From NCBI GenBank assembly GCA_016871495.1, contig VHDF01000047.1:1-33408 (forward strand): a DNA stretch of 33,408 nucleotides, given 5' to 3'. The position numbers and the translations under genes were made by a program. Positions 16,229 to 32,069 of the stretch are shown here, piece by piece. The notes below the pieces were generated by a model, which did not search any database, was not told where the DNA came from, and worked only from the letters and a program-made list of their open reading frames with translations. The number at the start of each line of letters is the position of its first letter. The first letter of the stretch is position 1. This stretch comes from Verrucomicrobiota bacterium. Its GTDB lineage: Bacteria; Verrucomicrobiota; Verrucomicrobiia; Limisphaerales; VHDF01.

Positions 16229-17893
16229 ATGGCGGAGCCCAAGAAAAAGCAAGGCGCCCCCTCCGGTTCGGCGTCGCCGACCCTCGAGGAATTGGAGAAG
16301 CTCTCCACGTTGCAACTCCTGGATTGGCTGGCAATGCGGGGCGGAGGCCGCGCCTGGTCCCCTTCCGAGTATGCCTTCGTCCGGGACCGCATCGCGGGTT
16401 TGGAGGAAATGAACGATCAAGCCAGGCAGGCGATCGAGAAACTGGACGCGGCGGTCGATCAGCTCAGAGCCCCCGCTCTCCGCGCGGGCACATTCCTCGA
16501 GAGTTTGGGACCGAAAGAAGCCCTGGTCTGCGTCGGAGGATCTGATTACCTCTGCCAAGTGGATCCAGACATCGCCGCCCAGGGACTGCAAATCGGGGAG
16601 CGCGTGCTCTGCAATCAAGCTTTTGCGGTGGTGCGAGCCCTGGGATTTGACCGTTCGGGCCCGATCGTTCGCGTGGAGGACGTGCTCTCGGACGGACGCC
16701 TCCGCATTGGCCAGGACGCGACCGGCCCGCAGACCGTGGTGGTGAGATCCGCGCTGTTATCCAAGGACAAGATCAAGCCGGGCGTGGAGATCCGGCTGGA
16801 TCCGTTTCAACGGGTGGCGTTGGAGGTGGTGGGCGTCTCGAAGCGGATTCATCGCGTGCTGGAGTCTGTTCCGGAAATTCCCTGGAGCGCGATCGGCGGG
16901 CAGGAGGAAGCGGTTTCGGCCATTCGGGACGCGATGGAAATGCCGTTCCTGCACCGCGATTTGTTCAAGGCGTTCGACCACGCGGTTCCGAAGGGCTTTC
17001 TCCTCTATGGACCTCCCGGCTGCGGCAAGACGCTTTTGGGGAAGGCGGCGGCCTACAATCTGCGCCGCCAGCATCAAGCGAGAACGGGGCAGGATCGACC
17101 CGAATTTTTTCTGCATATCAAGGGCCCGGAGATCCTGAACATGTGGGTGGGGGAGTCCGAACGGCAAGTGAGGGATCTCTTCGCTCAGTGCCGGGAGAAA
17201 GCGCGGGAGGGTGCGCTCGCGTTCTTGTTCATCGACGAAGCCGAGTCGCTGCTGGGCACGCGGCACGGCGGCCGTTTTCATCACATGTCCAGCACCATGG
17301 TCCCGATGTTCTGCGCGGAAATGGACGGCCTGGAACCGTTGCAGAATGTGGTCGTGATGCTGGCTTCGAACCGGGCGGATCTCATCGACCCGGCCATTCT
17401 GCGACCGGGCCGGGTCGACCGGAAGATTCGCGTGCGGCGGCCGGACGAGGCCGGCGCTCGGGCTATTTATGCGCTCTACCTCAAGGAGGGCTTGCCGCTG
17501 GCCGAGCCGAGGGAGGTCCTGGCCGCGGCGGCGGCGGAGTGCCAGTTCGCGCGGACGGAAAGCCGTGAATTCCTTGAGGTGACTTATCGCAGCGGACGGC
17601 GTGACGTGTTGTATCAGGGAGACCTGGCCAGCGGCGCCATCATTGCGGCCATCGTCGAGCGAGCCAAAGGCGCGGCCATCAAGCGCTCCGTGGAACTCGG
17701 TGTCGTGTCTCCTTTGACCCGGGAAGATCTGCTGCAAAGCCTCGACCGCGAGTATGGTGAGAACGATTTGTTCCCCGCGAACGATCTGACGGAGGACTGG
17801 CTGAAATTGACTGATTTCGACCCTCACAACGTGGTGAGGCTGGGTCCGGTGCGCCCACGCGGAGCAACCGAGCTTACGGTCAGCGTGGTGTGA
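16229..17893 (+). CDS. mpa: Proteasomal AAA+ ATPase (ARC/Mpa family)
   Basis: 554 residues (M. tuberculosis Mpa is 609). The N-terminal part includes a predicted coiled coil at about residues 50-80 (RDRIAGLEEMNDQARQAIEK), which in Mpa binds the Pup modifier. Residues about 85-200 fit the OB-fold interdomain. The AAA+ module has Walker A GPPGCGKT (261-268), a pore loop in NMWVGESE, Walker B FLFIDEAES with D336-E337, and RPGRVDR. It would form a hexameric ring that unfolds tagged proteins into the 20S core. The C-terminus ends ELTVSVV, without the QYL/HbYX-type docking motif of Mpa. It leads the operon; dop follows after 10 bases. The symbol arc is equally used. Confidence 0.95.
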   Translation: MAEPKKKQGAPSGSASPTLEELEKLSTLQLLDWLAMRGGGRAWSPSEYAFVRDRIAGLEEMNDQARQAIEKLDAAVDQLRAPALRAGTFLESLGPKEALVCVGGSDYLCQVDPDIAAQGLQIGERVLCNQAFAVVRALGFDRSGPIVRVEDVLSDGRLRIGQDATGPQTVVVRSALLSKDKIKPGVEIRLDPFQRVALEVVGVSKRIHRVLESVPEIPWSAIGGQEEAVSAIRDAMEMPFLHRDLFKAFDHAVPKGFLLYGPPGCGKTLLGKAAAYNLRRQHQARTGQDRPEFFLHIKGPEILNMWVGESERQVRDLFAQCREKAREGALAFLFIDEAESLLGTRHGGRFHHMSSTMVPMFCAEMDGLEPLQNVVVMLASNRADLIDPAILRPGRVDRKIRVRRPDEAGARAIYALYLKEGLPLAEPREVLAAAAAECQFARTESREFLEVTYRSGRRDVLYQGDLASGAIIAAIVERAKGAAIKRSVELGVVSPLTREDLLQSLDREYGENDLFPANDLTEDWLKLTDFDPHNVVRLGPVRPRGATELTVSVV

Positions 17894-17898
17894 GGGAG
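17892..17898 (+). promoter_or_regulatory. Shine-Dalgarno of dop
   Basis: GAGGGAG five bases before the ATG at 17904; it overlaps the TGA stop of the ATPase gene. It is one of the few strong ribosome-binding sites in the window and fixes the dop start. Confidence 0.75.
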
Positions 17899-17903
17899 TC
17901 TTC

Positions 17904-19430
17904 ATGGAGTCGCCCATCCCGATCCTGATCGGAGTGGAAACGGAGTACGGGATCCATGTCGAGCGCTCCGAAGGAGAGGGCGAGCCCGATGTGGTGGCGG
18001 ATTCGATCGCGCTGGTGCGCTGCGCGTCCGAACCCGGGGTCTGGATGGTGTGGGATTATTCGGCGGAGGATCCGCACCGGGATGCGCGAGGGTTTCACGT
18101 CGATCAACTGCGGCAGGACACCGACGAAGCCGCTTATGTCGATCAAGACGCGCGACGCGAGCTTTCCTACGTGGAGGTGAAAAGCGATCTCGCGCTGAGC
18201 AACGGCGGGCGTTTCTACAACGATCACGCGCATCCCGAATTCTGCACCCCGGAATGCGCAACTCCTGGAGAATTGGCCCAACAGGACCGGGCCGGCGAAT
18301 GGCTGGTCCGAAATTGTGCGCGCACTCTCGGCGGCAAGCTCGGAAGGCCGGTGCGGATTTACAAGAACAACACGGACTTTCAGGGACACAGTTACGGCTG
18401 CCACGAGAACTATTTGCTGCCCCGCGCCCTGCCCTGGGAAAAACTGGCGCGAGCGATGCAGGCTTTCCTGGTCACGCGGCAGATTTACGCCGGGGCCGGA
18501 AAATTCGGCTGGGAGGCGGAGGATCGCTTTCTCGAGTCCCATTTTCAGATCAGCCAAAGAGCGGATTTTTTCTCCGAGCTCCAGAGTGTGGACACCATGC
18601 AGCGGCGGCCCTTGATCAACACCCGGGACGAGCCGCACGCGAACCCGAGTCTTTACCGCCGGTTCCATGTCATCCTGGGCGATGCCAACATGTCTCCCTT
18701 CGCGACGCGGCTGAAGGTCGGCGCCACCGCCCTGGTTCTGGAAGCGGCGGCGCGCGCGCCGGATCTTGATTGGCCGGTCCTCGAACACCCGCTGGAAGCA
18801 GTGCGGTCCATTTCCCGGGATCCGGATTTCGCCTGGAAGGTGCGTTGCGAGCGGAACCGCTTCGCTTCAGCCCTGGAGGTGCAGTCCTGGTATCTGGAGA
18901 TGGCGGGCCGCTGGTGCAACACCGCGGAATCGTGGAAGACGGCGCTGATGTCGGATTGGGCCCAGGTGATGAAGGACCTGGCCGAGGATCCTTTTCGTTG
19001 CCGCCACCGGCTGGATTGGCCGGCGAAATTGCATTGGATCCGACGGTTTCAGAGGGACGAAGGCTTGTCTGATTCCGACCCCTGGCTGCGCAGTCTCGAT
19101 TTGCAATATCACCTGCTGGATCCGGCGGAAGGGTTGTTTGCCGCGCTGGAGAGCTCGGGCGAGATGGAAGCCGGGGAGCCGGACGAAGCTTCTGCCCGAG
19201 CGCTCCGATCTCCGCCCGCCATCACCCGCGCCGCCGTGCGTGGAAAGTTGATCGAGAAATTCCCCGCGCGGGTTCTGGCCGCGCAGTGGGACCACGTGCT
19301 GCTGGAAGGCAAGGCAGGCGTGGTCCGGGTGGATCTGACGGATTTGTTCGCCCCGGACGACATTTCGCGCTATCTTCAGCGCATTGAAGCGGCCCGCGCA
19401 GTGGACGACTTGCGGGGGTTGGACGATTGA
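17904..19430 (+). CDS. dop: Dop-type UBact/Pup depupylase (deamidase homologue)
   Basis: 508 residues of the Pup-ligase/Dop (glutamine-synthetase-like) fold. It opens ILIGVETEYGIHVE with the metal-binding E12/E14, and the nucleophile is D107 in FYNDHAHPEFCTPEC. The segment between about 50 and 90 (SAEDPHRDARGFHVDQLRQD) is the extra Dop loop that PafA enzymes lack. RIYKNNTDFQGHSYGCHENY, FQISQRADFF, INTRDEPHANP and GDANMSPFAT are conserved. Dop cleaves the isopeptide bond between modifier and substrate. In actinobacteria it also deamidates a terminal Gln of Pup, which is not needed here because the adjacent modifier already ends in Glu. The stop is 29 bases before the UBact ATG. Confidence 0.94.
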   Translation: MESPIPILIGVETEYGIHVERSEGEGEPDVVADSIALVRCASEPGVWMVWDYSAEDPHRDARGFHVDQLRQDTDEAAYVDQDARRELSYVEVKSDLALSNGGRFYNDHAHPEFCTPECATPGELAQQDRAGEWLVRNCARTLGGKLGRPVRIYKNNTDFQGHSYGCHENYLLPRALPWEKLARAMQAFLVTRQIYAGAGKFGWEAEDRFLESHFQISQRADFFSELQSVDTMQRRPLINTRDEPHANPSLYRRFHVILGDANMSPFATRLKVGATALVLEAAARAPDLDWPVLEHPLEAVRSISRDPDFAWKVRCERNRFASALEVQSWYLEMAGRWCNTAESWKTALMSDWAQVMKDLAEDPFRCRHRLDWPAKLHWIRRFQRDEGLSDSDPWLRSLDLQYHLLDPAEGLFAALESSGEMEAGEPDEASARALRSPPAITRAAVRGKLIEKFPARVLAAQWDHVLLEGKAGVVRVDLTDLFAPDDISRYLQRIEAARAVDDLRGLDD

Positions 19431-19447
19431 CGCAAACCGGAGCGGAT

Positions 19448-19453
19448 GGAGAA
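19448..19453 (+). promoter_or_regulatory. Shine-Dalgarno of the UBact gene
   Basis: GGAGAA six bases before the ATG at 19460. It decides between that ATG and a TTG at 19427 overlapping the dop stop, which has no such site; the ATG gives the 58-residue protein. Confidence 0.75.
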
Positions 19454-19459
19454 TACGTT

Positions 19460-19636
19460 ATGCCCGATTCAGCTCAAAAGCAGCGGCCCGCCGGACCCGG
19501 CGGGGGAGGGGAGGGGGGCGGTTCCGAGCCCTCCGCGCCCAAGGTGGACAAGCCCAATGTGGACGACCTGCTCAAGAAAATGAAGAAGGTTGATCCCGAT
19601 CAGGCGCGCCGTTATCGGCAAAGGACCGGCGAATGA
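19460..19636 (+). CDS. ubact: UBact: Pup-like ubiquitin-like protein modifier
   Basis: 58 residues, disordered-looking N-terminus rich in Gly, Pro and Ser (GPGGGGEGGGSEPSAP), then a charged helix (VDDLLKKMKKVDPDQARRY) and the C-terminal RQRTGE. The DLLKKMKKVDP block and the RRYRQR[ST]GE end are the hallmarks of UBact, the Pup-like modifier described in Nitrospirae, Verrucomicrobia and other Gram-negative phyla. The terminal Glu is the residue whose side-chain carboxylate is joined to substrate lysines; it is encoded directly, so no Gln deamidation is required. The gene sits between dop and prcB exactly where pup lies in actinobacteria. The stop overlaps the prcB start by four bases (ATGA). 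The start is supported by a good Shine-Dalgarno. Confidence 0.93.
   Translation: MPDSAQKQRPAGPGGGGEGGGSEPSAPKVDKPNVDDLLKKMKKVDPDQARRYRQRTGE
19621..19625 (+). promoter_or_regulatory. Shine-Dalgarno of prcB inside the UBact gene
   Basis: AAGGA, seven bases before the prcB ATG at 19633, embedded in the codons for the last UBact residues (QRTGE). The modifier's C-terminal coding sequence thus also acts as the ribosome-binding site of the protease subunit. Confidence 0.6.
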
Positions 19637-20433
19637 GCGCCGACACCGTGGCGGGCGACTTTTTGTCGCTGCTCGCGGCCCGGCGCATCGAACCTCTGCG
19701 AGCCGAGTCGGGGACGCACGCGCCGCCCTACACGGAGGGCACCACCGTCTTTGCTTTTCATTGCGCCGAAGGCGTCCTGGTGGCGGGTGATCGCCGGGCC
19801 ACGGCGGGCAACTGGATCGTGACGGACCGGATCGAGAAGATCATCGAAGTGGACGATGCTTCTTTGCTGGCGATCGCCGGAGCGCCCGCGATCGCGTTCG
19901 AGATGGCCAGGGTGTTGCAAACCTCCTTCGAGTATTACCGACGCAGCCAGTTGCAACCGCTCAGCTTGGCCGCCAAGGTCCGTGCCTTGGCGCGTTTGTT
20001 GCGTGAGAATCTGCCCATGACCCTTCAAGGGGTGGGCGTGGTCATGCCGCTGTTCGCGGCCTGCGATCCGAAAGATCCGCAAGGGCCGCCGCGCATTTTC
20101 TTCTACGATCCGCTGGGGGCTCAATTCCAGGCCGTGGACTTCGCGGCCTCTGGTTCAGGTTCGGGCACCATCCGCAGCATCCTGGATTACCAGTCCCGAT
20201 TTGGAGTGCCCAAACCTTCCGCGCTGGGTCGTGTCGAGGCGACGGTGCTGGCTTTACGGCTCCTGGCGGTCGCGGCGGCGCATGACTCCGCGACGGGAGG
20301 CGTGCAGCCGGGCATCAGCCACTTCGCGACCTTGCGCCTGCTGGCCCGCGGGCGGATCGAAACCATTACCGAGGCGGAACAGCGCGCCGCCTGGGAGCGC
20401 GCCGGGATAGACAAAGATCCTCAATTTCCATGA
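19633..20433 (+). CDS. prcB: Proteasome beta subunit (catalytic)
   Basis: 266 residues. A propeptide of 36 residues ends in Gly before T37 (YTEGTTVFAF), the N-terminal nucleophile exposed by autocleavage. Counting T37 as Thr1, Asp17 (D53 in AGDRRATAG) and Lys33 (K69 in TDRIEKI) fall at the canonical catalytic positions, and the GSGSGT loop near residue 175 matches the active-site Ser/Gly segment. It therefore looks catalytically competent. It would form the inner two heptameric rings of a 20S core with the product of the next gene, whose start overlaps its stop by four bases. The resemblance to actinobacterial PrcB is strong in the first 100 residues. Confidence 0.95.
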   Translation: MSADTVAGDFLSLLAARRIEPLRAESGTHAPPYTEGTTVFAFHCAEGVLVAGDRRATAGNWIVTDRIEKIIEVDDASLLAIAGAPAIAFEMARVLQTSFEYYRRSQLQPLSLAAKVRALARLLRENLPMTLQGVGVVMPLFAACDPKDPQGPPRIFFYDPLGAQFQAVDFAASGSGSGTIRSILDYQSRFGVPKPSALGRVEATVLALRLLAVAAAHDSATGGVQPGISHFATLRLLARGRIETITEAEQRAAWERAGIDKDPQFP

Positions 20434-21173
20434 TCGAAGAACCCTACCGATGGCTCGAGGCCATCGCCCATCGCCGCGAGTACGTGCGGGACCAAATCCG
20501 CACCGCCACTCCGGTGCTGGCGATGAGCCTTCCCGAAGGCGTGCTGATGGTGGCGGCGGGCACAGGACAATCGAAAGTCTTCGAAATCTTCGACCGCCAT
20601 ATCGGTGGCGCCTTCGGCCATCCCGCCGACGTGGAGCGATTGCGGCAGGCGGCGATCGACGCCGCGCATGTGGAGGGATTCACGCGCGCCGCGGAAGATG
20701 TCACCTTGCGGCGTTTGGTGGGCTTCGGGTTGGGACCGCTCGTGAAGTCACAGTTCGAACACGTCTATGGAGCCCCTATCCTGGCGGAATGGCTTTTCGC
20801 CGAAGCGGGAACATCTCCGGCCGAAGACGTGCTCATGCGGCTTCATTTCCATGGCGCCTTTCGCATGTGCGACGGAGGTGTGGGCGTGGCTGCTCCTGAC
20901 CCGGACAAGGAACGTCTGGCCGAACAATGGATCCGTGAAGAGGCGCCGGGGCGGCGTGGACTCGAAGCGGCGTCCCGCCTTCTGCTCCAAGCCTGGTGGC
21001 TGCTCGAGGCTGGAAAACCCCTGGGGACGGGCCGTCCCGATGAAGGGGCGCGGGAAGAGGGCTGGCGTCAGGCGACCCGTGACAAAGTCTTGGAGTTAGC
21101 GCTCCTGGAGCGAGCTTCGACGAGGCGGTCCAAGGTTCGTTGGCTGACGCCCGGCGAAGCGGGTTTGGCATGA
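20430..21173 (+). CDS. prcA: Proteasome alpha subunit
   Basis: 247 residues, the usual length. It keeps the alpha-type N-terminal segment (AIAHRREYVRDQIRTATPVLAM) that gates the pore, then GVLMVAAGTGQSKVFEIFDRHIGGAFGHPADVERL, typical of alpha subunits. There is no catalytic Thr or propeptide. It would form the outer rings of the 20S core and contact the ATPase. The C-terminus (TRRSKVRWLTPGEAGLA) is not conserved. It overlaps prcB and pafA by four bases on each side (ATGA), which implies translational coupling and matched dosage with PrcB. Sequence conservation with actinobacterial PrcA is moderate; position makes the assignment firm. Confidence 0.92.
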   Translation: MIEEPYRWLEAIAHRREYVRDQIRTATPVLAMSLPEGVLMVAAGTGQSKVFEIFDRHIGGAFGHPADVERLRQAAIDAAHVEGFTRAAEDVTLRRLVGFGLGPLVKSQFEHVYGAPILAEWLFAEAGTSPAEDVLMRLHFHGAFRMCDGGVGVAAPDPDKERLAEQWIREEAPGRRGLEAASRLLLQAWWLLEAGKPLGTGRPDEGAREEGWRQATRDKVLELALLERASTRRSKVRWLTPGEAGLA

Positions 21174-22621
21174 ACCGGATCGTCGGATTGGAGACGGAGT
21201 ATGGCTGCCTGACGACAGATCCCGCCGGGTCGCCGCCGGTGGTGGCGAGAACCCGCAATTGGATCTTCGAGAATCACCGCCTCGGATTGGCGGACGTGCA
21301 TCAGCGCGATTGGGATGAACCGGCCGGCAACGGCGGATTCCTTTTCAACGGAGGGCGAGCCTACGTCGATATGGGGCATATGGAGTATTGCACCCCCGAA
21401 TGCCAATCGCTGCGCGATTTGATTGCATTCGACCGGGCCGGAGACCGCATGCTTCATCACGCGATTCAGGGGCTGGGCTTGTCGAGCCTGGCGGGTTTCA
21501 TTCGCAACAACGTGGATCACTACTCCGGGGCGACGTTCGGCTGTCATGAGAATTATCTGGTCCGGCGCGGGGCGCCTCTGAATGACCGCACCATCTATGC
21601 TTTGCTGGGCTTCTTGACGCTGCGGGTGCTCTATACCGGGGCGGGGCGGGTGGGCGGGATGTCGCATGGCGATGTCTCGCTGAGGACGGAAGCTCCGGGT
21701 GCGTCAGAAATCCCCACCCCGGTGTTCCAAATCAGCCAGCGGGCGGATTACATTAACAACGACCTGTTCGAATGGGTGCAGTTCAACCGGGCGATCATCA
21801 ACACCCGCGATGAACCCCTGGCAGATCCCAGCCGATTCCGCAGACTGCACCTGATCCATGGGGACAGCAATGTGCTGCCCTTCGCCCTCTTCCTCAAAGC
21901 GGGGACGACTTCTTTGGTGCTGGATCTGCTCGAAATCGATCAGATCCCCACCCTCAGCCTTGCCGACGCCGTGGCGTCGTTCCGGGAAATCTCCGTCAGG
22001 CCACACGGGCCCTGGAATGTGCGAACGGAAGAAACCGGTGAAACACCGGCGCTCGATCTGCTCCGAAAGTATTGGGAGGCAGCGCATCGATTCTTCGCGC
22101 GCCGGGATCGCGAGACGGACGACGTGCTCGAAGCCTGGGGGCAGACTCTGGACGCTCTCCAGCGCAATCCCGAAGAACTCGTGGGACGCGTTGATTGGAT
22201 CACCAAACAGTGGTTGTTGCGTCAGTTTGTGGAACACGAAGGCGTGCCATGGAACGATCCGGTCCTGCGCTCCCTGGATCTCGAGTACCATCATCTGGAT
22301 CCGAAACGGGGACTGGGATTGGCGTCGGAAACACCCGATCCGCGCTGGACGCCGCAGGAGACTGAAATTGAACAGGCGCTGAACCATCCACCCGCGAATA
22401 CGCGTGCCTCCATTCGGTCCCGCGTCATGGACTCGCTCCGGAGGGCCGATCGATCGTACTGCGTCGATTGGGAGGTGATCGATGCGGACGGCCTCCCATC
22501 GCTGCACATGATCAATCCGTTCGACTCGGACTCTTCGGCGGCGCAACGCTGGCTGCAGAGTTGGACGGTTTCGCCGGCTCCGGCGCGGCCGGCGCGGCCG
22601 GGGCCGGAACCCCTTGTGTAA
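21170..22621 (+). CDS. pafA: PafA-type UBact/Pup ligase
   Basis: 483 residues from the ATG at 21170, which overlaps the prcA stop (ATGA); M. tuberculosis PafA is about 450. It starts MNRIVGLETEYGCL, with the ATP/Mg-binding Glu at 8/10, and the essential Asp is D67 in AYVDMGHMEYCTPEC. FIRNNVDHYSGATFGCHENY, FQISQRADYI, INTRDEPLADP and GDSNVLPFA follow. It lacks the Dop loop between the first Glu motif and D67, which separates it from the enzyme at 17904. It would activate the C-terminal Glu of UBact as a phosphate ester and attach it to substrate lysines. The last ~20 residues are Ala/Pro-rich (SPAPARPARPGPEP) and overlap an antisense gene. Confidence 0.94.
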   Translation: MNRIVGLETEYGCLTTDPAGSPPVVARTRNWIFENHRLGLADVHQRDWDEPAGNGGFLFNGGRAYVDMGHMEYCTPECQSLRDLIAFDRAGDRMLHHAIQGLGLSSLAGFIRNNVDHYSGATFGCHENYLVRRGAPLNDRTIYALLGFLTLRVLYTGAGRVGGMSHGDVSLRTEAPGASEIPTPVFQISQRADYINNDLFEWVQFNRAIINTRDEPLADPSRFRRLHLIHGDSNVLPFALFLKAGTTSLVLDLLEIDQIPTLSLADAVASFREISVRPHGPWNVRTEETGETPALDLLRKYWEAAHRFFARRDRETDDVLEAWGQTLDALQRNPEELVGRVDWITKQWLLRQFVEHEGVPWNDPVLRSLDLEYHHLDPKRGLGLASETPDPRWTPQETEIEQALNHPPANTRASIRSRVMDSLRRADRSYCVDWEVIDADGLPSLHMINPFDSDSSAAQRWLQSWTVSPAPARPARPGPEPLV

Positions 22622-23588
22622 GCTGCGCCAGTTGGAGCAATAGAATTTCGAGTTCGCCGAGGTACTCGGCCTCGGTCGGGAAGCTCGCCTTGCGCTCCCG
22701 CAAGGATTCCACCGCTTCCTCGAGCTCCTGCACCCGGCGCTTGGTTTCGGCAGGCAGGGCGTCGATTTCCGAAGAAGGAAAAAAGAACAATCGATGAGCG
22801 AGCGCGCCGTCGAGGACCGCGTCCTTTTCCTTCGTTTGGGGACGGACTCCCTTGAACTTCGAGCCGGGTGTGCCCACACCGTCGCCGTTATCATCGAACA
22901 AGGCGTGTTCCGTGGCCAAACGCCCGGCGGCACGATATTCCTCCTCAACCGCGGCGGTCGCGGCCAGGAATGCTTCCAACGCTGAGATGCGGCGATCCTT
23001 GTCGCGATCGCTCCGCACATCCGCCAGCAGGAGTGGAAAATGGGTTCCAAACCGGGTGGCGTTGCGTTCCTGAGCGCTGCGAGTCGCGGTGATCACCACG
23101 CGGTTCGTGCCCGAGAGGGCGCGCACAAAGGGCGCGCTCGCGGGCGCGGAATTCACGATGCACAGGGGACGCGTGAAGGGCTTGAGCCAGAGCGCAAGCT
23201 CGTCCGAACTGAAGTCCGGTCCGTCCAAATTGAACCTCGCGGTGCGTCCGTCATGGGTTCCATGCCCCAGCAACACCAGCCACAAAGGCGAATTTTCCGC
23301 GTCGTTTCGCGGCAGGTTCTCCAGGATTCCCTGCAACGCAGATTTAGGCGAAGCAGAACCGGGAGAGGGCTCGAGGCCCACAGAAGCAACGCGAAATCCC
23401 GCCGCGCGGCCGTGCTCCAAAAGGCGCCGTCCGGATTCGGCGAAGGCCTCGCCAAACTCCGCGTCGCCGGCCGCACCCACCACCACGATCAGATCACCGT
23501 TCGGGGTCTTGGGCGGGACCGCGCTGAACGCCCCGAGTTCGGTCAAGGCGGCCCACATCAGAACGAGCCTGAGAGCAAGACGCATCAT
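22512..23588 (-). CDS. Caspase/C13-fold-like secreted protein without catalytic Cys
   Basis: 358 residues from the ATG at 23588, which overlaps the upstream stop (ATGA). A signal peptide (MMRLALRLVLMWAALTELGAFS) is followed by a caspase-hemoglobinase-like core: a first strand DLIVVVGAAG, the His motif WLVLLGHGTHDG (H109), an extended RFNLDGPDFSSDELALWLKP, and the strand LCIVNSAPASAPF. In active peptidases the Cys follows the Asn/Asp-Ser pair; here position 148 is Ala, so activity is doubtful. The C-terminal half is a helical segment (EIDALPAETKRRVQELEEAV) and an Ala/Pro-rich tail. It is the last gene of the VWA operon. The fold is inferred from motif order only. Confidence 0.7.
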   Translation of the reverse strand: MMRLALRLVLMWAALTELGAFSAVPPKTPNGDLIVVVGAAGDAEFGEAFAESGRRLLEHGRAAGFRVASVGLEPSPGSASPKSALQGILENLPRNDAENSPLWLVLLGHGTHDGRTARFNLDGPDFSSDELALWLKPFTRPLCIVNSAPASAPFVRALSGTNRVVITATRSAQERNATRFGTHFPLLLADVRSDRDKDRRISALEAFLAATAAVEEEYRAAGRLATEHALFDDNGDGVGTPGSKFKGVRPQTKEKDAVLDGALAHRLFFFPSSEIDALPAETKRRVQELEEAVESLRERKASFPTEAEYLGELEILLLQLAQLTQGVPAPAAPAAPEPAKPSNSAASVAPPKSPSRTD

Positions 23589-26017
23589 GCCATGCCACTC
23601 CTTCGTCGCAGGCCCCATTCAATGACCCACAAAGCCAAGGCCAAACCAAAAACCCAGCCGCGGTGCCAGAGCGGTTCGATCCAAGGCTCGCTGATCGGAG
23701 CCTTGCGGTTCGGCATCGATTGAGCCCAGGACTCCAAATCGCCAGCCTCCACCATCGCCCCGCCGGTGGCCTGAGCGAGCGCCTCGAGCAAGGGCTTGTT
23801 CGGCTGCAAGGACCGGAATTCGTCCGCCGCCGGGTCCGACGTCCAGCCCCCTTCGGCTTGTCCGATCTCAGCGCCGGCGTCATTGGTGGCCACCACCTGG
23901 ACTCGGTAACCGCCCGGCCAGCGCGGAAGAAAGGTGGATTCGTAGACGCCAGGCTCACGCGCCGACGGGTCCAGAGATAATCGGAAAGACTCAACACGAT
24001 TGGTTCCCGAACCCTCTTGAGGAAGCGGCTGCACGGTGGCGAGGACCGAGGCGTTGTCCAATGGCTGGAATGCCTTGTCCTTGATCTGAGCCCGCACTTT
24101 CACCGCCGGTTCGCTGTCCTCGAGCTGCGGTTGCAATTCGACGGAGACCTGGGTGGCGGAGTCGGTCACGAGCCAGCGCGCGAGCTGTCGCCAGGTTTTG
24201 GCCATCTCTTTCTGAGCGTCAGGGTGACGCATGCCCCAGCGCCAGTAGTCGCCCACCGTCATGGCAGCGGTCCGTCCGTGGCCGTAACGTTGCACGACCA
24301 AGGCGGGGAGGGGAGTGCCACTCGCGGCCTTCAAGACGGCCATCACGCTGGCGCCGGGCTTCACCCCCTCCAGGCGATTCACCACTTGGAACGGAGGCAT
24401 GGCGGCGACGCGCTCCTGCTCGGCGTTCTCCGTCGCGTGCGTGCGCATCCACGGCTGCAACACGCCCTCACGGGTCAATTCCCACCGGTAGCCCGGCTCC
24501 AACGGCGTGCGTGACACCCGATCGAGATAAAGCGGCAGCATTTCCGAGACGGGAGTTCGTTGATACTTCCCGTCCTGGAGCGAGTCCGCCCCGCCGAGCA
24601 TCAGAAATCCCCCGCCGCGTTCGGAGACGAACTTTTGCAGCAGCGTCAATTGTTCGCGGGTGAAGAAACCCGACTCCAAATCGTCCACGATGACCGCTTC
24701 ATACTCGTAAAGCTCCTCGGCGGTTTTCGGGAACCCGCCTTTCAACTCCTGTTTGTCGCGGGTATTGAGCCGGATGAGGACGGGTTGATCATAACGTTCG
24801 GTCTCCTCCTGGTCTTGGTTCCCGAAGCCACGATAAAGTGGATTGCTCGTTTCGCCAGGCCGTCCCAGAAAATCGAATTTCGGTTCCCGGCGAGCGATGC
24901 GGATGATCGCCACCAAATCGAGCTCGTGATCGTCATCCAGAGCTCGGTTCAGAAATTTGTATTCCCAATTGGGGCGGCCCGAGACGTAGAGAATGCGGTG
25001 CATGCCCCGTCCGCGGTCGATGGCGACGGTGCGGCGATTGTTCAACAGCGTGGCCTCGCTCCCGGCCCCACCGCTCTCCGCCGACGCCTCCAGCTTGAAG
25101 AAACTCACGCCGGACTTCACCGGTCGAAAACGAAAGGTGACCGGAACGACAGGTTGTCCGCTGGGAACCGTGATCGTTTGAGTCTGGTCGGGGGTTGGCA
25201 GCCTCGCCAGCTCGTTGGTGGAGGGAGACCGGCCGGGCCGGGCGGGCGGCGCGGCGCGGGCCACGGTTGCAGGTTCCGCGATTTCCACCAGTGTGACCTT
25301 GATTTTCTCGCCCGCGAATCCCTGCACTCGGATTTCGGCCTCCACGGACGAGGGCGCGTCCTCGAACACGCTCTGCGTGGTCTTGACGCGGTCTATCGAC
25401 ATGTCCCGCAGCGCCGAGCCCGATCCGACTGCCAGCGGAAAAATCGGCGGAAGCGACTTGAGCTCCTCGGGGGTGAGCGCCGCGTCGGTGGCGTTGCCGT
25501 CGCTGAGGAGCAACACGCCCGCCAGCGGTTGGGATTTGAAGCGCGCGGCCAGGCCCTTCAACGCCTGGTGCAAGGCGGAAGACGGACCTTGAAAATCGAG
25601 CTCGCCGAAATCGCGCGAGGCCTGCAGGCGTTCGTCGAAGTAATAACGCCGGACTTCAAACGAAGAGGAAAGGGTATCCCGCCAAGCCCGCTTCTCTCCG
25701 CGCAAAAACTCCATCACATGCTGCCCGCGGCTGCGCGCGTCCCCTCGATCGTGAATCTGCAGTCCCTGGCTGTTGTCCGCCAGCACCACGAAATAATTCT
25801 GGCCGGTTTTGGCTCGCTGCCGCACCGCCTGGGGCTCGAGCACGCAGATCGCGAGCAGCGCGTAGGCCGCCATGCGGAGAAAGAAACAAACGAGCCGTTT
25901 GCCAGGAGCCGCCAGAGATTTCCAGTGCGCCCAGAGCGAGAGCAAAAACACCACCAAGCCCAGTCCCAGAACTGGCTGGAGCCATTCCCGCCCCGCGAAC
26001 GTAACCTCCGGGATCAT
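23585..26017 (-). CDS. VWA / glutamine-amidotransferase-like membrane protein
   Basis: 810 residues. Two N-terminal membrane segments (about 12-30 and 43-62) precede a VWA-like domain whose metal site is degenerate (VVLADNSQGLQ instead of DxSxS) and which continues SQPLAGVLLLSDGNATD. A beta-sandwich region follows, then a class I GATase-like Rossmann domain (RILYVSGRPNWEYKFLNRAL, AVIVDDLESGFFTREQL, GGGFLMLGGADSL) without an obvious catalytic Cys triad. It ends with a final membrane helix (GWVFGLALALWVIEWGL). This arrangement is typical of large membrane proteins encoded with BatA-like and DUF58 proteins in Planctomycetes and Verrucomicrobia; their function is not established. It starts five bases after the DUF4175-like gene. 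Confidence 0.82.
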   Translation of the reverse strand: MIPEVTFAGREWLQPVLGLGLVVFLLSLWAHWKSLAAPGKRLVCFFLRMAAYALLAICVLEPQAVRQRAKTGQNYFVVLADNSQGLQIHDRGDARSRGQHVMEFLRGEKRAWRDTLSSSFEVRRYYFDERLQASRDFGELDFQGPSSALHQALKGLAARFKSQPLAGVLLLSDGNATDAALTPEELKSLPPIFPLAVGSGSALRDMSIDRVKTTQSVFEDAPSSVEAEIRVQGFAGEKIKVTLVEIAEPATVARAAPPARPGRSPSTNELARLPTPDQTQTITVPSGQPVVPVTFRFRPVKSGVSFFKLEASAESGGAGSEATLLNNRRTVAIDRGRGMHRILYVSGRPNWEYKFLNRALDDDHELDLVAIIRIARREPKFDFLGRPGETSNPLYRGFGNQDQEETERYDQPVLIRLNTRDKQELKGGFPKTAEELYEYEAVIVDDLESGFFTREQLTLLQKFVSERGGGFLMLGGADSLQDGKYQRTPVSEMLPLYLDRVSRTPLEPGYRWELTREGVLQPWMRTHATENAEQERVAAMPPFQVVNRLEGVKPGASVMAVLKAASGTPLPALVVQRYGHGRTAAMTVGDYWRWGMRHPDAQKEMAKTWRQLARWLVTDSATQVSVELQPQLEDSEPAVKVRAQIKDKAFQPLDNASVLATVQPLPQEGSGTNRVESFRLSLDPSAREPGVYESTFLPRWPGGYRVQVVATNDAGAEIGQAEGGWTSDPAADEFRSLQPNKPLLEALAQATGGAMVEAGDLESWAQSMPNRKAPISEPWIEPLWHRGWVFGLALALWVIEWGLRRRSGMA

Positions 26018-26022
26018 GCCGT

Positions 26023-29000
26023 TTACTGGCCCTGGCCCAGACGTTCGTAATAGCGTCGAACCAGCTCGGAATAACGAGCCGGCACCGGATCGCGGTCCAG
26101 CGGCACCAGCGCGTCCTTCGACTCGCGGCGCGCCAGTTCCTCCATGATGCGCGAGCGCACCTCGATCAACGGGGTCAGCAATTCGTTTCGAAACAGATCA
26201 GCCTGGGGCGGACGGCTGTGGCGACGCGAATCGATGCGCATCTCGCGAGCCCGCTCGCGCACGCCGGAGATGCGCTCCCGCAACCCCGGCAGTTCGACGG
26301 CATCCTCGACGTCGCGCAGACGGTCCGACCATTCCGCATATTGTTCGCCTAAAACAGGCCCCTCTTCAGCGCCTCCGAAGCGGCCGTCCCACACGCCGCC
26401 TCCACCTCCGCCCGCCCGGCGGCCGCCGTCGTTCGCGCCACCACGTTGAGCGGGAGACCCGGGAGTGCCGGATCGATTGGCCAGGCCGCGACGGCCTCCC
26501 TGACCCGGATTGGGACCACGCCCTTCTCCAGCCTGGGCCTGAGATTGAGCTTGAGCTTGAGCCTGGCTTCGACCTTCCCCCTGGCCTCGTTCCCCTTGCC
26601 CTTGCCCTTGCCCTTGCGCGGACCCCGGTGAATCGGATGAAGTTTGCGGCCGATTGGAGTCGCTTCCGGAGGGATTCTCGGCGGAAGGGGCCGGGCTGTC
26701 TCCTCCCGCGTTCGATCCCGGCTGGGCCGCGTTTTGTTCGCCCTCGCCTCGATTGCTCTGGGAAGCCAGTTGCCGGGGTCCACGGGTGGGAGCGTTGGTT
26801 CCCCCTCTGCCGGCGCCGCCCGCAAGATTCGTCGAAGCGGCGTTGGTGGATACGCCACCCGCGGCGGCCAGGCGATTGGTGGACTCCCCGGCCAGAGCGT
26901 CCGCTTCTTTGGCCAGCGATTCCGTGAGAGCGTCCAACTCACGCCGGGCGCGCCGAAGCGCTTCGGTATCGTCACCCAACAGCCGGCTGGCCGCCGAATC
27001 CACGCCCCGCTGCAAGGTCATGATATTGGTCAGGATTCTTTGCTCGAGAGCCGCGGTTTCGCGCAGGCTGCCACCGCGCAACATTTGTTGAGCCACCTCG
27101 ATCGGTTTGCGGTTTTGTTGGCGGGCTTCCTCGAGGAGATCGTAGCCGTCCCGGGTCAAGGCTCCTTCGCGCATCAACTGGTCGCGCGTCTCCGGAAAGC
27201 TTCGCGCGTTCTGTTGCGCCGCCTGCCGGAGGGCATCGTAAAGCTGCCGCGAGAAGGCGGGCTCGCTAGCTTCCGCGGATTCGTTGATGCGCGAGGCGTC
27301 GTTCCAAACTCGGTTCATGCGCTCGGCCTGCTCGTTCATCGCCCGGGCCAGTTCTTCCCGTTCCGAAGGCGCCCCGAGGGAGCGGGGCCGGTTCTCCCCG
27401 GCGGAGCGCAGCCGCTGATTGATTTCAACTTCCTTCTGCGCCAGTTCTCGCGTGTCCTGTCGCAACTGCCTGACTTGTTCGTCGAGTTGATTGGACGCGG
27501 TCTTGCGCGCTTCCTCCCGCATTTCTTGAAACTGGCGCGCCGCGCGATTCCCGGCCGCCAACGCATCGTTGACATCACGAGAATCGAGCGCGTCCGCCGC
27601 CTGGCGCACTTGATCACGCGCTTCGCGGGCTTGCTGCCGCAGATCCGCGCTCTCCTCGCCGGGGGGTCGGCGTTCCAGCCGCTGGGCCAGATCATCCACG
27701 TCCTCGAGCATCTGCCGCTCTTCCTCGCGCAGCCGCTTGAGCCGGCGGTCCATTTCCTCGCGTTCCTCCTCGGTGCGGGCGCGGTTGCGTTCCGACGCGA
27801 GCTCGTTGATGCGCTCGTTCAAGTCCTGCTGCCGTTGGGCAAGTTCCTTGAGGCGGTTCAAAATCTGTTGGTCCTCATTGCGTCCGGCCGCCTGCCGCTC
27901 CGAGGCTTGCCGCTGGGTTTCGTAACGCTGGTCGGCCGACTTGAGATCGAGCTGATCGAGCTCGCCGCCGTCCTGGCGTTCGCCGCCACCTCCGCCGCCT
28001 TCATTGCGCTGGCGGGATTGGGTCACCTCGAATTCACGGGGAGCCAGACGCAACAACGCCTGATAGGCGGCTTGTTCGGCCTGGATCGCCACGGCCAAAG
28101 AACCGGGCGATTGGGCGGATTTTTGCAAAGCCTCCACCGCTTGTTCCATCGACTCTTTCGCGGTTTTCCTGGCCGCCTCGCTTCGGCCTCCCCCGCCGCC
28201 GCCGTCGCCTTCCCCCATGGAAGACAGTTGCTCCAGCGCTTTCCTCTGAGATTCTTCGACCACTCCGACGTCCTTTTCATAGTTCTTCGGGAGCCGTCCA
28301 CCGCGGGTTTGGGATTGCAGCTTCCAGGTGGCGTTGAGGATCTGTTTCTGCAATTCAGCGAGACGCACGGCCTGTCCACCCTGCCCGCCTTGATTTCCGC
28401 CCGGGTTCTCCTGTTGATCCAGGTCGCCCTGTCGGAACACTTGCAGGAAGGGGCGGACTTCGCTGAAGTAAAGATCGCTGGTGACCCGGCGCGGTTTGCC
28501 ATCGGGTCCCGTGTCCTCGGCCCAGACATGCCAGGCGATCAACGCTCCGGGGGACAGTTGTTCTCGCTCCAGGGCCAGCAGATGGTGGAGCGATTGTTTC
28601 CCGGTCAAGCCTCTGGCCGCCCAGTCGGCGTTGGTGGAAGCGCGCGCGTCGAGCAAGGTCAAGTCGTTGGTCGATTTCCCGGGAATGGTGTAATTCAAAC
28701 CGGCGGCCAGCACTCCGAAATCATCCTTCACCTCCGCCAGAAACTCGATTTCCTGGAGCGGCGAAACCTTCGAATCGCCGCGCGGGGCAATCAGTTTCAA
28801 CTCCGGAGGCCGGTTCGAAATCGTCTCGAAATGGAACAGCGCCGGGAGCAGGTTGGTGCGATTGCTTTCATCGACCAGCTCGAGTCCGTAGAGGGCGTTG
28901 GTCTGAAAAACGTACTCGGGCAACAGCGCGGCGGCGTTGGTGGTGGAGATCGACAGTTCCACCGGAGCGCGCTGAGTCGCCACCAGCCGGGCCGAGCGGA

Positions 29001-29949
29001 TGATCTTGTTCAACTTCAAATCCAACCTCATCCGCGTGCCTTCCACCGCGGCCACCCGCTTGGTGTCCTCCATCTTGCGCTCGCCCAAGCCCGTGTAAGC
29101 CGGATGCGCCAACGTGGCATCCGCTCGTTCCAGTTTCGGCTGCTCGAACACCGTGAGGCGGTAATTGCGCGTTTTCGAGCTCCCATACTCAACGCGATAG
29201 ACCGCATCCCGCGTTAAGGAGGGCAAAGTCCCCCCAAACACCGGATCACTAAGGTTCCTGGCCAGCTCAAGGGTCTTCTCCAAACCGTCCGCACCGGTCC
29301 AAACCAAGCGAGCCCGCGCGGGAATGGCGCCCGGAAACCGGACCAACACCGCGACGGATTGCCCTTTCTCAACCTCCGCATCGCCGGGCGTCACTTCGAT
29401 GGTATTCTTGGCGACGGCAAGCGCCCGGTCTTTGGCGGGGCCATGATTGGGCAGGAACCACAACACCGGCATCAAGCACGCCAGCCAAAAAAGGGACGAC
29501 GCTTTCGAAAGAAAGGCCCGTTCGATGAACGGCTGGTCCCACGGGCGAGTCCGGAAGGCCGCGGCTGCTTCCGAGAAGAGCCGCTCCTGCAAATATCCCC
29601 AGCTCCCGTCCGTCTCGGAAGGACGCTGTTCGATCGAAGTCAAGAGCAGCGCCCTGAGTTTGGGATCCCGCTCCTCGATCTCGCGCACGATCTGAACCGC
29701 CTCGTCCGGCCTCCGTCCCGCGCGCCGCCACCACACCACACTGCCCGCGATGAACAGCAGCAGGAAAATCCAGCGGAAATAGGGAATCGAAGCAAAAGCT
29801 CCCCCGGACCGGCTGGCCCACACCACCAGCAGGGCGGCCACGAGGGCGGCCAGCCATCCCCACGTGAACCCGCGCCAAGCATGCAGCGCGCGCCGGGCTC
29901 GAATCACGCGGTTCAGCGCGATTTGTAAGATGGGATGTAAATCCGTCAT
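26023..29949 (-). CDS. DUF4175-like coiled-coil membrane protein
   Basis: 1308 residues from the ATG at 29949, which overlaps the upstream stop (ATGA). There are three membrane segments near the N-terminus (about 29-45, 58-74 and 150-167). An extracytoplasmic beta-rich region follows (EKGQSVAVLVRFPG, RPPELKLIAPRGDSKV), then a very long charged coiled coil (RLKELAQRQQDLNERINELA, RLRSAGENRPRSL) and a Gly/Gln/Ser-rich low-complexity segment (QGQGQGERGQGEGRSQAQAQ). The C-terminal ~110 residues (SDRLRDVEDAVELPGL) are again ordered-looking. It matches the DUF4175-type proteins encoded beside BatA/VWA genes in related phyla. The role is unknown, perhaps a large envelope scaffold. Confidence 0.82.
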   Translation of the reverse strand: MTDLHPILQIALNRVIRARRALHAWRGFTWGWLAALVAALLVVWASRSGGAFASIPYFRWIFLLLFIAGSVVWWRRAGRRPDEAVQIVREIEERDPKLRALLLTSIEQRPSETDGSWGYLQERLFSEAAAAFRTRPWDQPFIERAFLSKASSLFWLACLMPVLWFLPNHGPAKDRALAVAKNTIEVTPGDAEVEKGQSVAVLVRFPGAIPARARLVWTGADGLEKTLELARNLSDPVFGGTLPSLTRDAVYRVEYGSSKTRNYRLTVFEQPKLERADATLAHPAYTGLGERKMEDTKRVAAVEGTRMRLDLKLNKIIRSARLVATQRAPVELSISTTNAAALLPEYVFQTNALYGLELVDESNRTNLLPALFHFETISNRPPELKLIAPRGDSKVSPLQEIEFLAEVKDDFGVLAAGLNYTIPGKSTNDLTLLDARASTNADWAARGLTGKQSLHHLLALEREQLSPGALIAWHVWAEDTGPDGKPRRVTSDLYFSEVRPFLQVFRQGDLDQQENPGGNQGGQGGQAVRLAELQKQILNATWKLQSQTRGGRLPKNYEKDVGVVEESQRKALEQLSSMGEGDGGGGGGRSEAARKTAKESMEQAVEALQKSAQSPGSLAVAIQAEQAAYQALLRLAPREFEVTQSRQRNEGGGGGGERQDGGELDQLDLKSADQRYETQRQASERQAAGRNEDQQILNRLKELAQRQQDLNERINELASERNRARTEEEREEMDRRLKRLREEERQMLEDVDDLAQRLERRPPGEESADLRQQAREARDQVRQAADALDSRDVNDALAAGNRAARQFQEMREEARKTASNQLDEQVRQLRQDTRELAQKEVEINQRLRSAGENRPRSLGAPSEREELARAMNEQAERMNRVWNDASRINESAEASEPAFSRQLYDALRQAAQQNARSFPETRDQLMREGALTRDGYDLLEEARQQNRKPIEVAQQMLRGGSLRETAALEQRILTNIMTLQRGVDSAASRLLGDDTEALRRARRELDALTESLAKEADALAGESTNRLAAAGGVSTNAASTNLAGGAGRGGTNAPTRGPRQLASQSNRGEGEQNAAQPGSNAGGDSPAPSAENPSGSDSNRPQTSSDSPGSAQGQGQGQGERGQGEGRSQAQAQAQSQAQAGEGRGPNPGQGGRRGLANRSGTPGSPAQRGGANDGGRRAGGGGGGVWDGRFGGAEEGPVLGEQYAEWSDRLRDVEDAVELPGLRERISGVRERAREMRIDSRRHSRPPQADLFRNELLTPLIEVRSRIMEELARRESKDALVPLDRDPVPARYSELVRRYYERLGQGQ
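26535..26618 (-). repeat. Coding low-complexity hexamer repeats
   Basis: Inside the DUF4175-like gene, tandem six-base units appear on the plus strand: TTGAGC-like units at about 26543-26563 and CTTGCC-like units at about 26595-26617. They encode the (Gln-Gly)n and (Ala-Gln)n stretches. The units are in frame, so slippage in whole units would only change linker length. Confidence 0.7.
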
Positions 29950-32060
29950 GCTGCCACCGCCGTTCTCGTTCCAAACCAACCCGCCAAAAGCGTCTCCACA
30001 ACCAGCACCATGATGGCCGCAGCCAGAAACCAACGCCAGCCCTTTTGGCGCCCCTCAAACTCGGCCACCGCTTCCTGCATGGCTCTCTTCTCTGAAGACC
30101 CGGCTTCCGCTGTTTTGGTTTCGAGCGGAACCGCCTTGACCGGAACGCCCAGGCGTTCCAGCTCATCCGAGGGCATGGGCTCGATGCGGCTTTCCGCCGG
30201 CGCGAGATTCACGGCAAATCGCCGGGGTTTGCCGGCACCTGACAATTGGTAGATCCCGGGGGCATCCACCCGCTGGCGCGACACCTCGGAAGCCAACACC
30301 GTCTCCACACCTCCCGGAGCCGACCAGCGCCGCGTCTCTCCTTCCTTTCCGGGTCCGATGGAAACTTCCGCCCCCACCCGATACTGAGTCGGCTGATCCA
30401 CGATCACACCCGACCATTCCAACACCCGATACAACAACGGCACGAATTTGGACGACAGCGCCAACTGGCTGTCTTCCACGTGCCAGCCTGACGTCAGCAA
30501 CAGCATTCGTCCCTTGTTTACGGGAATCTCCACCATGGCCGGATCGCCCTGATCAAACCACGCCATCGCGCGAGCCCCCGGGATCGCGCTCACATCGATC
30601 TTGCGATGCTTCCAAAACCGGATGCGGGTAAAATCCCCGTACCTCGCCTCGGCAAAGGGAGCCAGCACCGGGTGGTCCCAATCCAGCCGGCTCAAAATCG
30701 AATCGCCTCCGGTGGACTCGGAGATCGGGAGTTGATCCACTCCAGCCAGTTTGGCCAAAGCCGGCGCCGCACCCGTCCCGCGCAAGGCCGCCATCACCGT
30801 TTTGCCCGCCGCCAAGAACTCGCCCGCCGCCCGCCAGGCTTCCTCCGAAACCGGTTCCATCAACACCATCGATCTCGCCGCGGCCAACTCCCCCGGCAGC
30901 AACGCTTCCCCGCCGCGCTTGTGAATCAACTGAAACTTATGACGACCCGTCTCCACCAAAGCACGCTTGAGAAAATAAAGCATCGAACTGCCACCGGCTG
31001 CGGTCTCGTCGCTCAACGCCAGCACGTTGAGGCTTTCTTCCTCGTTCACAACACGGTAAAGCTTGTTGTCGAAGGCCGTCTCGTCTCCGTCGAGCCACAG
31101 GGCCTCCACCTCTTCGCCTCCCTCCTTGGCGGGAGCCACCAAAGTTCGCGATTGTCCCGGAGGCACCTGGATCGTCACCGGCTTGCCCACCAGCGTGGTC
31201 GAGCCGGGTTTCACCCAGCCCAACCGAAGTTCTTGCGATTTCGATTTGGCGTGATTTTGGACGCGTACGCGCTGGCCCGTGGCCGCCGCACCAGGGCTCG
31301 ACAATCCCTCCGCGTCTCCGATCCATTGGAGCGACGCGTTGCCCAACGCTCCCCGCGAAACCGGCTCCAGCTTCACTTCCAATCCCTTGGGCCAATTGTG
31401 ACCCGCGAGACCGTCCAAATGCGACCCGGCTTGAAAATCGCTGATCAACACCACTTCCAATTTGTCGATGCCGGCACCGCCCGTGGTGCGCAATGCTTCA
31501 AGCTGCTCCACGGAGGAAACCAGTGCCCTGCCGATCCAGGTGGATTTCCATCCAGGCTTCTCTTTGCGCAACGCGTCCAGCGCCCGGGTTGCGCGTTCAG
31601 CCACGGGGCCTTGCCGCCACGATTCCGCGCCGAACACCTGTCGCATCGACTCGTCGAAGACCCACACTTCGGCCAGATCAGGGGCCGTCAGTTCGCGCAG
31701 CGCGGCTTCCGCCCGCTCGAGGGCGGCATCCCAAAGTCCCGGACGCTGCAAGCTCGCGCTGACATCGACCAGAACAAGCCGCTTCCGCGTTTCCTCGCCG
31801 GAGGAAGCGGTCACGGTCGGTTTCCCGAAATAAGGACGCGCAAACGCCAGGGCCACCAAGGCCAGCATCAACAACCGCAAAGCCAGCAGCAGCAAGTCCT
31901 CCAACCGGCTGCGCTTGGTCATGCGCGGAGGCGTGGGTTCCAGGAACATCAACGTCGGGAATGGCGCGGTCTCCTGGGGCCGCCGCCGGATCAAATGCCA
32001 CAAGACCGGCGCCACCATCGCGGCCAGACCGGCGAGGAACAAAGGCGCAAGCAAGCTCAT
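29946..32060 (-). CDS. BatA-like VWA-domain membrane protein
   Basis: 704 residues. The N-terminus is the BatA-type double membrane segment (LAPLFLAGLAAMVAPVLWHLIRRR, then RLEDLLLLALRLLMLALVALAFARPYF). The VWA domain follows with a MIDAS-like DVSAS (LVLVDVSASLQRPG), and a GATase-like segment (SMVLMEPVSEEAWRAAGEFL, GRMLLLTSGW) lies further on. A C-terminal membrane helix is present near residues 680-698 (WFLAAAIMVLVVETLLAGWF). It is probably an inner-membrane protein with a large extracytoplasmic part that works with the neighbouring DUF58 and coiled-coil proteins. BatA-type operons have been linked to envelope stress or aerotolerance, but the function is not settled. The ATG is nine bases after the DUF58 stop. 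Confidence 0.87.
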   Translation of the reverse strand: MSLLAPLFLAGLAAMVAPVLWHLIRRRPQETAPFPTLMFLEPTPPRMTKRSRLEDLLLLALRLLMLALVALAFARPYFGKPTVTASSGEETRKRLVLVDVSASLQRPGLWDAALERAEAALRELTAPDLAEVWVFDESMRQVFGAESWRQGPVAERATRALDALRKEKPGWKSTWIGRALVSSVEQLEALRTTGGAGIDKLEVVLISDFQAGSHLDGLAGHNWPKGLEVKLEPVSRGALGNASLQWIGDAEGLSSPGAAATGQRVRVQNHAKSKSQELRLGWVKPGSTTLVGKPVTIQVPPGQSRTLVAPAKEGGEEVEALWLDGDETAFDNKLYRVVNEEESLNVLALSDETAAGGSSMLYFLKRALVETGRHKFQLIHKRGGEALLPGELAAARSMVLMEPVSEEAWRAAGEFLAAGKTVMAALRGTGAAPALAKLAGVDQLPISESTGGDSILSRLDWDHPVLAPFAEARYGDFTRIRFWKHRKIDVSAIPGARAMAWFDQGDPAMVEIPVNKGRMLLLTSGWHVEDSQLALSSKFVPLLYRVLEWSGVIVDQPTQYRVGAEVSIGPGKEGETRRWSAPGGVETVLASEVSRQRVDAPGIYQLSGAGKPRRFAVNLAPAESRIEPMPSDELERLGVPVKAVPLETKTAEAGSSEKRAMQEAVAEFEGRQKGWRWFLAAAIMVLVVETLLAGWFGTRTAVAA

Positions 32061-32069
32061 ATGGAAGGA

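Follow-up and report, generated by a model that had tools for sequence, protein, structure and literature searches.

The six genes at positions 16229–22621, on the plus strand of the window (the whole 33 408-nucleotide stretch of DNA from a Verrucomicrobiota bacterium that was analyzed here), very probably encode a complete pathway for tagging proteins with the modifier UBact and degrading them in a proteasome; we put the probability of this reading at roughly 85%. The genes are open, co-directional and tightly packed, and they fill the interval in the order ATPase, Dop, UBact, beta, alpha and PafA, as the original prediction had proposed from the sequence alone. This order is, as was also claimed, that of the actinobacterial Pup-proteasome genes, and the same six genes in the same order form one stretch in 50 of the loci examined. 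The last three gene junctions (UBact/beta, beta/alpha and alpha/PafA) are ATGA overlaps and the spacing between Dop and UBact is 29 bases, as expected for a single transcription unit; scans for promoters and terminators in this region gave signals no higher than chance. Two gene boundaries were refined. The start of UBact was set at the ATG at 19460, which has GGAG ahead of it and in favor of which an upstream TTG was dropped, and that of PafA at the ATG at 21170. The source genome has 5.06 Mb and is 97% complete.

Of 196 genomes sampled from the order, 69 (about a third) carry UBact; in a draw of 388 genomes from the whole phylum, 10 have a match over the cut-off. When named genomes were scanned, 200 stretches were confirmed, the best 80 of which are mostly from Verrucomicrobiota (Pedosphaera, Limisphaerales, Methylacidimicrobium and strain LP2A) and also take in Armatimonadota, Gemmatimonadota and Latescibacteria. 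The name UBact dates from 2017, the year in which Lehmann et al. reportedly described UBact-proteasome systems (doi 10.1016/j.bbrc.2017.01.037). Verrucomicrobial Pup homologs had been reported in 2008 by Iyer et al. (PMC2588565); this type of system is thus already known, and it is common in its order, not rare. Dop and PafA have been regarded as very sporadic in Verrucomicrobia (PMC7947786), which is at odds with the presence of the system across the order. Older accounts describe such loci as sporadic and horizontally acquired (PMC3511204, PMC7947786), which would suit an actinobacterial locus that has decayed or was imported recently, but the frequency of UBact in the order speaks against this reading, as do the absence of any stop or frameshift in all six genes, a G+C content of 63% compared with 62% in the window, and trees of Dop and PafA that largely agree and in which the window falls within a wide clade of verrucomicrobial sequences. 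We regard such an origin as barely credible.

In one family (f27) the operon is split, with Dop, UBact and beta kept together and alpha, PafA and often the ATPase located at other places in the genome (genomes G076, G160, G125, G195 and G174; loci L035, L042, L047, L055 and L059). Loss of alpha or PafA in this family was considered and ruled out, because the genes sit elsewhere in those genomes: alpha and both PF03136 genes are present in five of the five genomes tested. That alpha and both ligase-family genes are kept despite their unlinking is good evidence that the parts work together, and speaks for one working system.

Profile searches of the six proteins, as originally proposed, gave Pfam matches for UBact, Dop, PafA, beta and the ATPase, and alpha, which scored 47.3 bits on TIGR03691, was recognized by its fold. 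The scores for PF03136 (475 and 386 bits), PF20513 (73 bits, cut-off 27.8) and PF00227 (86 bits) place the identification of the six genes far beyond chance. Equivalog cut-offs of the TIGR models were missed for Mpa, Dop, PafA, PrcA and PrcB, and the finer functions could therefore differ. All the residues that had been listed as key are present: Walker A and B in the ATPase, Asp107 in Dop, Asp67 in PafA, Thr37, Asp53 and Lys69 in beta, and the terminal Glu in UBact. Profile, tree and fold evidence together support the assignment of a UBact, Dop, PafA and proteasome set to a member of the Verrucomicrobiota.

The UBact gene (19460..19636) encodes 58 amino acids ending in VDPDQARRYRQRTGE (RQRTGE), with a terminal Glu that would be ready for ligation. 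The protein scores 73.4 bits on PF20513 (cut-off 27.8) and 77.2 bits on NF033388 (cut-off 35), passing both curated cut-offs, and has the conserved end VDPDQA[RK]RYRQRTG[EQ]. It is present in a single copy in the whole genome, and a profile search for Pup (PF05639) over the same genome gave no match, with a positive C. glutamicum control. Among 89 distinct UBact sequences the terminal residue is Gln in 60 and Glu in 29, so that the window shows the minority state; at least eight changes between the two are required on the Dop tree. Dop is nevertheless kept in genomes with a Glu-ending UBact, which suggests that its lasting role there would be tag removal instead of deamidation. Actinobacterial Dop has both activities (PMC7947786). 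Genomes of the Glu-ending kind offer a natural case where tag removal is all that Dop can do.

Several weaker or misleading UBact matches were also seen. Forty-three matches to UBact patterns came from viral contigs (L172–L214); the 13 examined are one widespread phage protein of about 220 amino acids whose LLEKMKKVDP resembles the UBact core motif by chance, and they were rejected. Genome G017 has a second, weak UBact match below the cut-off. In locus L047 (G125:C74, UBact at about 96987) the frame terminates at KKVDPAAARIT-stop, with RYRQRTG[EQ] missing, although Dop, PafA, alpha and beta are present; either the modifier is broken or the assembly contains an error.

Gene 2 (17904..19430, 508 amino acids) encodes a homolog of the Dop-type depupylase/deamidase and gene 6 (21170..22621, 483 amino acids) a PafA-type ligase. 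They are the only two PF03136 genes in the genome, and at 475.5 and 386 bits they lie clearly inside the Pup-ligase family, where the original prediction had placed them. Dop has its catalytic Asp107 at 18222–18224 and a Dop-specific insert, the Dop-loop (WDYSAEDPHRDARGF...; 18051..18179), that aligns with the corresponding loop in Dop of Acidothermus and of M. tuberculosis; PafA has its catalytic Asp67 at 21368–21370 and no Dop-loop. The TIGR Dop and PafA models are reported to be poor at discriminating these paralogs (PMC7947786). Gene 2 scored 403.8 bits on TIGR03688 (cut-off 492.3) compared with 312.9 on the PafA model, and gene 6 scored almost equally on TIGR03686 (281.1 bits, cut-off 551.3) and the Dop model (281 versus 275 bits). 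Because of both facts, a tree was used to separate the two. In this tree of 57 sequences, including solved actinobacterial Dop and PafA, UBact-linked gene 2 clusters with actinobacterial Dop (support 96/87), and gene 6 falls on the non-Dop side with PafA of C. glutamicum, which is the only actinobacterial PafA included and has a long branch. The UBact Dop and UBact PafA groups each form one side of a branch, with support of 99/95 and 100/99.

Both enzymes retain the catalytic Asp (26 of 26 in UBact PafA) and the E-x-E motif. Residues that separate PafA from Dop have been listed (PMC7947786), and at those columns, in the alpha-loop and beside the catalytic Asp, UBact PafA mostly lacks the PafA-specific residues of actinobacteria; most of its positions are unlike both PafA and Dop. 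The alpha-loop region of the window's PafA (ADYINNDLFEWVQFN; 21743..21787) has its own motif, unlike that of actinobacterial PafA or Dop, and in column counts at the positions of PMC7947786 the UBact PafA pattern is N/T, D/E, F/Y, E, W, F/H, N, with mostly Pro in place of an Ala of actinobacterial PafA. The PafA/Dop specificity positions of UBact Dop also show a distinct pattern. As both UBact enzymes have patterns of their own at the listed positions, it is likely, judging from these alignments, that other residues tell the ligase and depupylase reactions apart in the UBact lineage.

The 3' end of pafA overlaps by 110 bases a convergent open reading frame of 368 amino acids (22512–23618, minus strand) that has no Pfam match, and Ala/Pro-rich stretches are encoded by both overlapping ends. 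On the same minus strand, a cluster of BatA, DUF58/VWA and GATase1-like genes (22512–33071) adjoins the operon, and a match to the group II intron RF00029 (33240–33316, minus strand, 45.3 bits) is located at the end of the window.

The beta subunit (19633..20433, 266 amino acids) scored 85.8 bits on PF00227 and 136.7 bits on TIGR03690 (cut-off 191.9). Its mature relatives in the PDB begin at its residue 37 in the alignment, giving a propeptide of 36 residues and a mature Thr1 at position 19741. Thr37, Asp53 and Lys69 correspond to Thr1, Asp17 and Lys33, and are kept in 96 of 97 sequences. Scores on HslV models were far below the cut-offs. A search of the genome found neither HslV nor any PF00227 protein besides beta, so that the UBact proteasome is the sole protease of this type found in the assembly.

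The alpha subunit (20430..21173, 247 amino acids) is highly diverged, with no Pfam match and a TIGR03691 score (47.3 bits) below the cut-off. Its AlphaFold model has a pLDDT of 94.3, and the best Foldseek matches to the model are proteasome chains of M. tuberculosis and Rhodococcus (best E-value 4.5e-13, about 1e-12); the prediction thus confirms that the modeled product folds as a proteasome alpha subunit, with an Ntn fold and an N-terminal H0-like helix (residues 3–23). Lys49 (20574–20576) aligns with the actinobacterial alpha lysine and is invariant (78 of 78); from this alignment and from established knowledge of the family we take it to be the pocket lysine. Two residues close to the end of the N-terminal helix, Arg15 and Tyr18, are also invariant in UBact alpha (78 of 78), and E-Y at residues 15–18 of the window's alpha is presumably nearer to archaeal alpha than to mycobacterial PrcA.

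Tagging does not in every case lead to degradation: some actinobacteria that carry out pupylation have no proteasome (PMC3511204). By analogy, conjugation and removal of UBact could have mainly a regulatory or recycling function, and the proteasome would then degrade little of the tagged protein. The divergence of alpha and the lack in the ATPase of the GQYL tail needed for mycobacterial gate opening (PMC12288473, PMC8142254) fit such a role, but the conserved active site of beta, the invariant pocket lysine and the retention of alpha with the tagging genes even in split operons all argue against it, and we consider it improbable compared with the degradation pathway.

The first gene of the operon (16229..17893) encodes a proteasomal, Mpa/ARC-like AAA ATPase with 554 amino acids. 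It consists of a long N-terminal helix, a proteasomal double OB region, an AAA domain with Walker A (GPPGCGKT at 261) and Walker B (FIDE at 334), and a beta-grasp-like C-terminal domain, and scored 106.7 bits on PF00004, 57.9 on PF17758, 41.5 on PF16450 and 426.7 on TIGR03689 (equivalog cut-off 504.75). The closest solved chain is 5kwa, Mpa (304.7 bits). In the AlphaFold model, which is of moderate confidence (pLDDT 71.7), residues 45–89 (16361..16495) are predicted to form a single long helix where Mpa has its modifier-binding coiled coil. The predicted beta-grasp-like domain (residues 447–540; 17567..17848) has strands at 447–453, 458–462 and 535–540 and helices at 469–490 and 498–511, mostly with pLDDT 78–92.

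In mycobacterial Mpa, the C-terminal GQYL is required for opening the gate of the core, and C-terminal motifs of this kind are thought to form a salt bridge with a conserved alpha lysine (PMC12288473; PMC8142254). In contrast, the window's ATPase ends in the aliphatic Ser-Val-Val-stop (17882..17893) in place of GQYL/HbYX. The same holds for 66 of 66 distinct complete tails of UBact-linked ATPases, sampled from phyla other than Nitrospirota: the last residue is always Val (34) or Ile (32), and the penultimate one is I, V, T, M, S or A and in no case Tyr. The distance from the conserved DW to the C-terminus is 30–36 residues, and in alignment coordinates the Mpa tail exceeds the window tail by about nine residues. 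The last residue stays Val or Ile although positions −5 to −9 are highly variable, so the end of the tail is itself constrained. A cause at the nucleotide level, through overlap with the start of Dop, was ruled out: the V/I tail is encoded by seven different codons and all three stops, and is kept where the ATPase lies 1.5–1.8 kb from Dop. The constraint is thus at the level of the protein.

Read from the sequences, the simplest interpretation would keep the contact between the terminal carboxylate and the lysine of alpha, with aliphatic residues replacing tyrosine. A conserved tail alone is no proof of docking, and it might serve another binding partner. Alternatively, the ATPase may not dock by its C-terminus, and the gate may be opened by the beta-grasp-like domain or by a distinct activator that carries an HbYX tail, an idea that competes with the docking step only. 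It is in keeping with the lack of a penultimate Tyr in any tail and with a report that the beta-grasp domain of Mpa contacts the core in M. tuberculosis (PMC9599533). On the other hand, selection on the tail end, seen in an invariable V/I next to variable positions −5 to −9, counts against it, as does the failure of a genome search, run without a positive control, to find a Bpa-type activator; we judge this alternative less likely than docking by the tail. Docking of the ATPase by its C-terminal tail is a matter of about even odds.

In the pathway that we propose, PafA would use ATP to join the gamma-carboxylate of the terminal Glu of UBact to lysines of target proteins, and Dop would remove the tag and so edit or recycle; deamidation of Gln by Dop would be unneeded here, because the gene already encodes Glu. 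Tagged proteins would bind through UBact to the N-terminal coiled-coil helix of the ATPase hexamer, which would unfold them via its pore loop (MWVG). The substrates would then enter an alpha7-beta7-beta7-alpha7 core and be cut by Thr1 of beta. The ATPase would dock on the alpha ring by its short aliphatic tail (-S-V-V), which lacks the HbYX/GQYL tyrosine; the contact would most likely be a salt bridge between the terminal carboxylate of the tail and Lys49 of alpha. The operon is presumably expressed, with conjugation and degradation as the presumed outcome.

Like other UBact-proteasome systems, the locus combines a modifier of the same family with a G[EQ] end, two PafA-family enzymes and proteasome subunits in the same gene neighborhood, UBact adjoining the genes for Dop, PafA, the ATPase, alpha and beta; no difference was found that sets the window apart, its terminal Glu being a minority state among its relatives. 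The actinobacterial Pup-proteasome system (Mpa/ARC, Dop, Pup, PrcB, PrcA and PafA) shares with it the gene order, enzyme families, active sites and core-particle folds. It differs in that the window's modifier belongs to the UBact family and not to Pup, the ATPase lacks GQYL, the alpha-loop specificity positions of PafA and Dop are different, alpha is highly diverged, and no PAC2 chaperone homolog was found in the window's genome. HslUV also pairs an Ntn protease with an AAA unfoldase, and the C-terminus of HslU is likewise aliphatic, whereas the window has separate alpha and beta subunits plus tagging enzymes.

The literature searched, outside which lay the 2017 UBact paper and most subscription papers, holds almost nothing on UBact systems, and neither a mention of the V/I tail nor a report of the PafA/Dop loop motifs was found in it. 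Together, the tail and loop features may lift this system above a routine annotation. UBact proteasomes may constitute a separate bacterial class, in which a Tyr-less aliphatic ATPase end (usually -[IV]-[IV]-COOH) engages the alpha ring and the specificity residues of ligase and depupylase are unlike those of Actinomycetota; we offer this tentatively, at slightly less than even odds. Archaea/eukaryotes and Actinomycetota are two sources of proteasome biology, and UBact systems add a third; if such a class exists, gate opening of the HbYX type would not be universal among the ATPases of 20S proteasomes.
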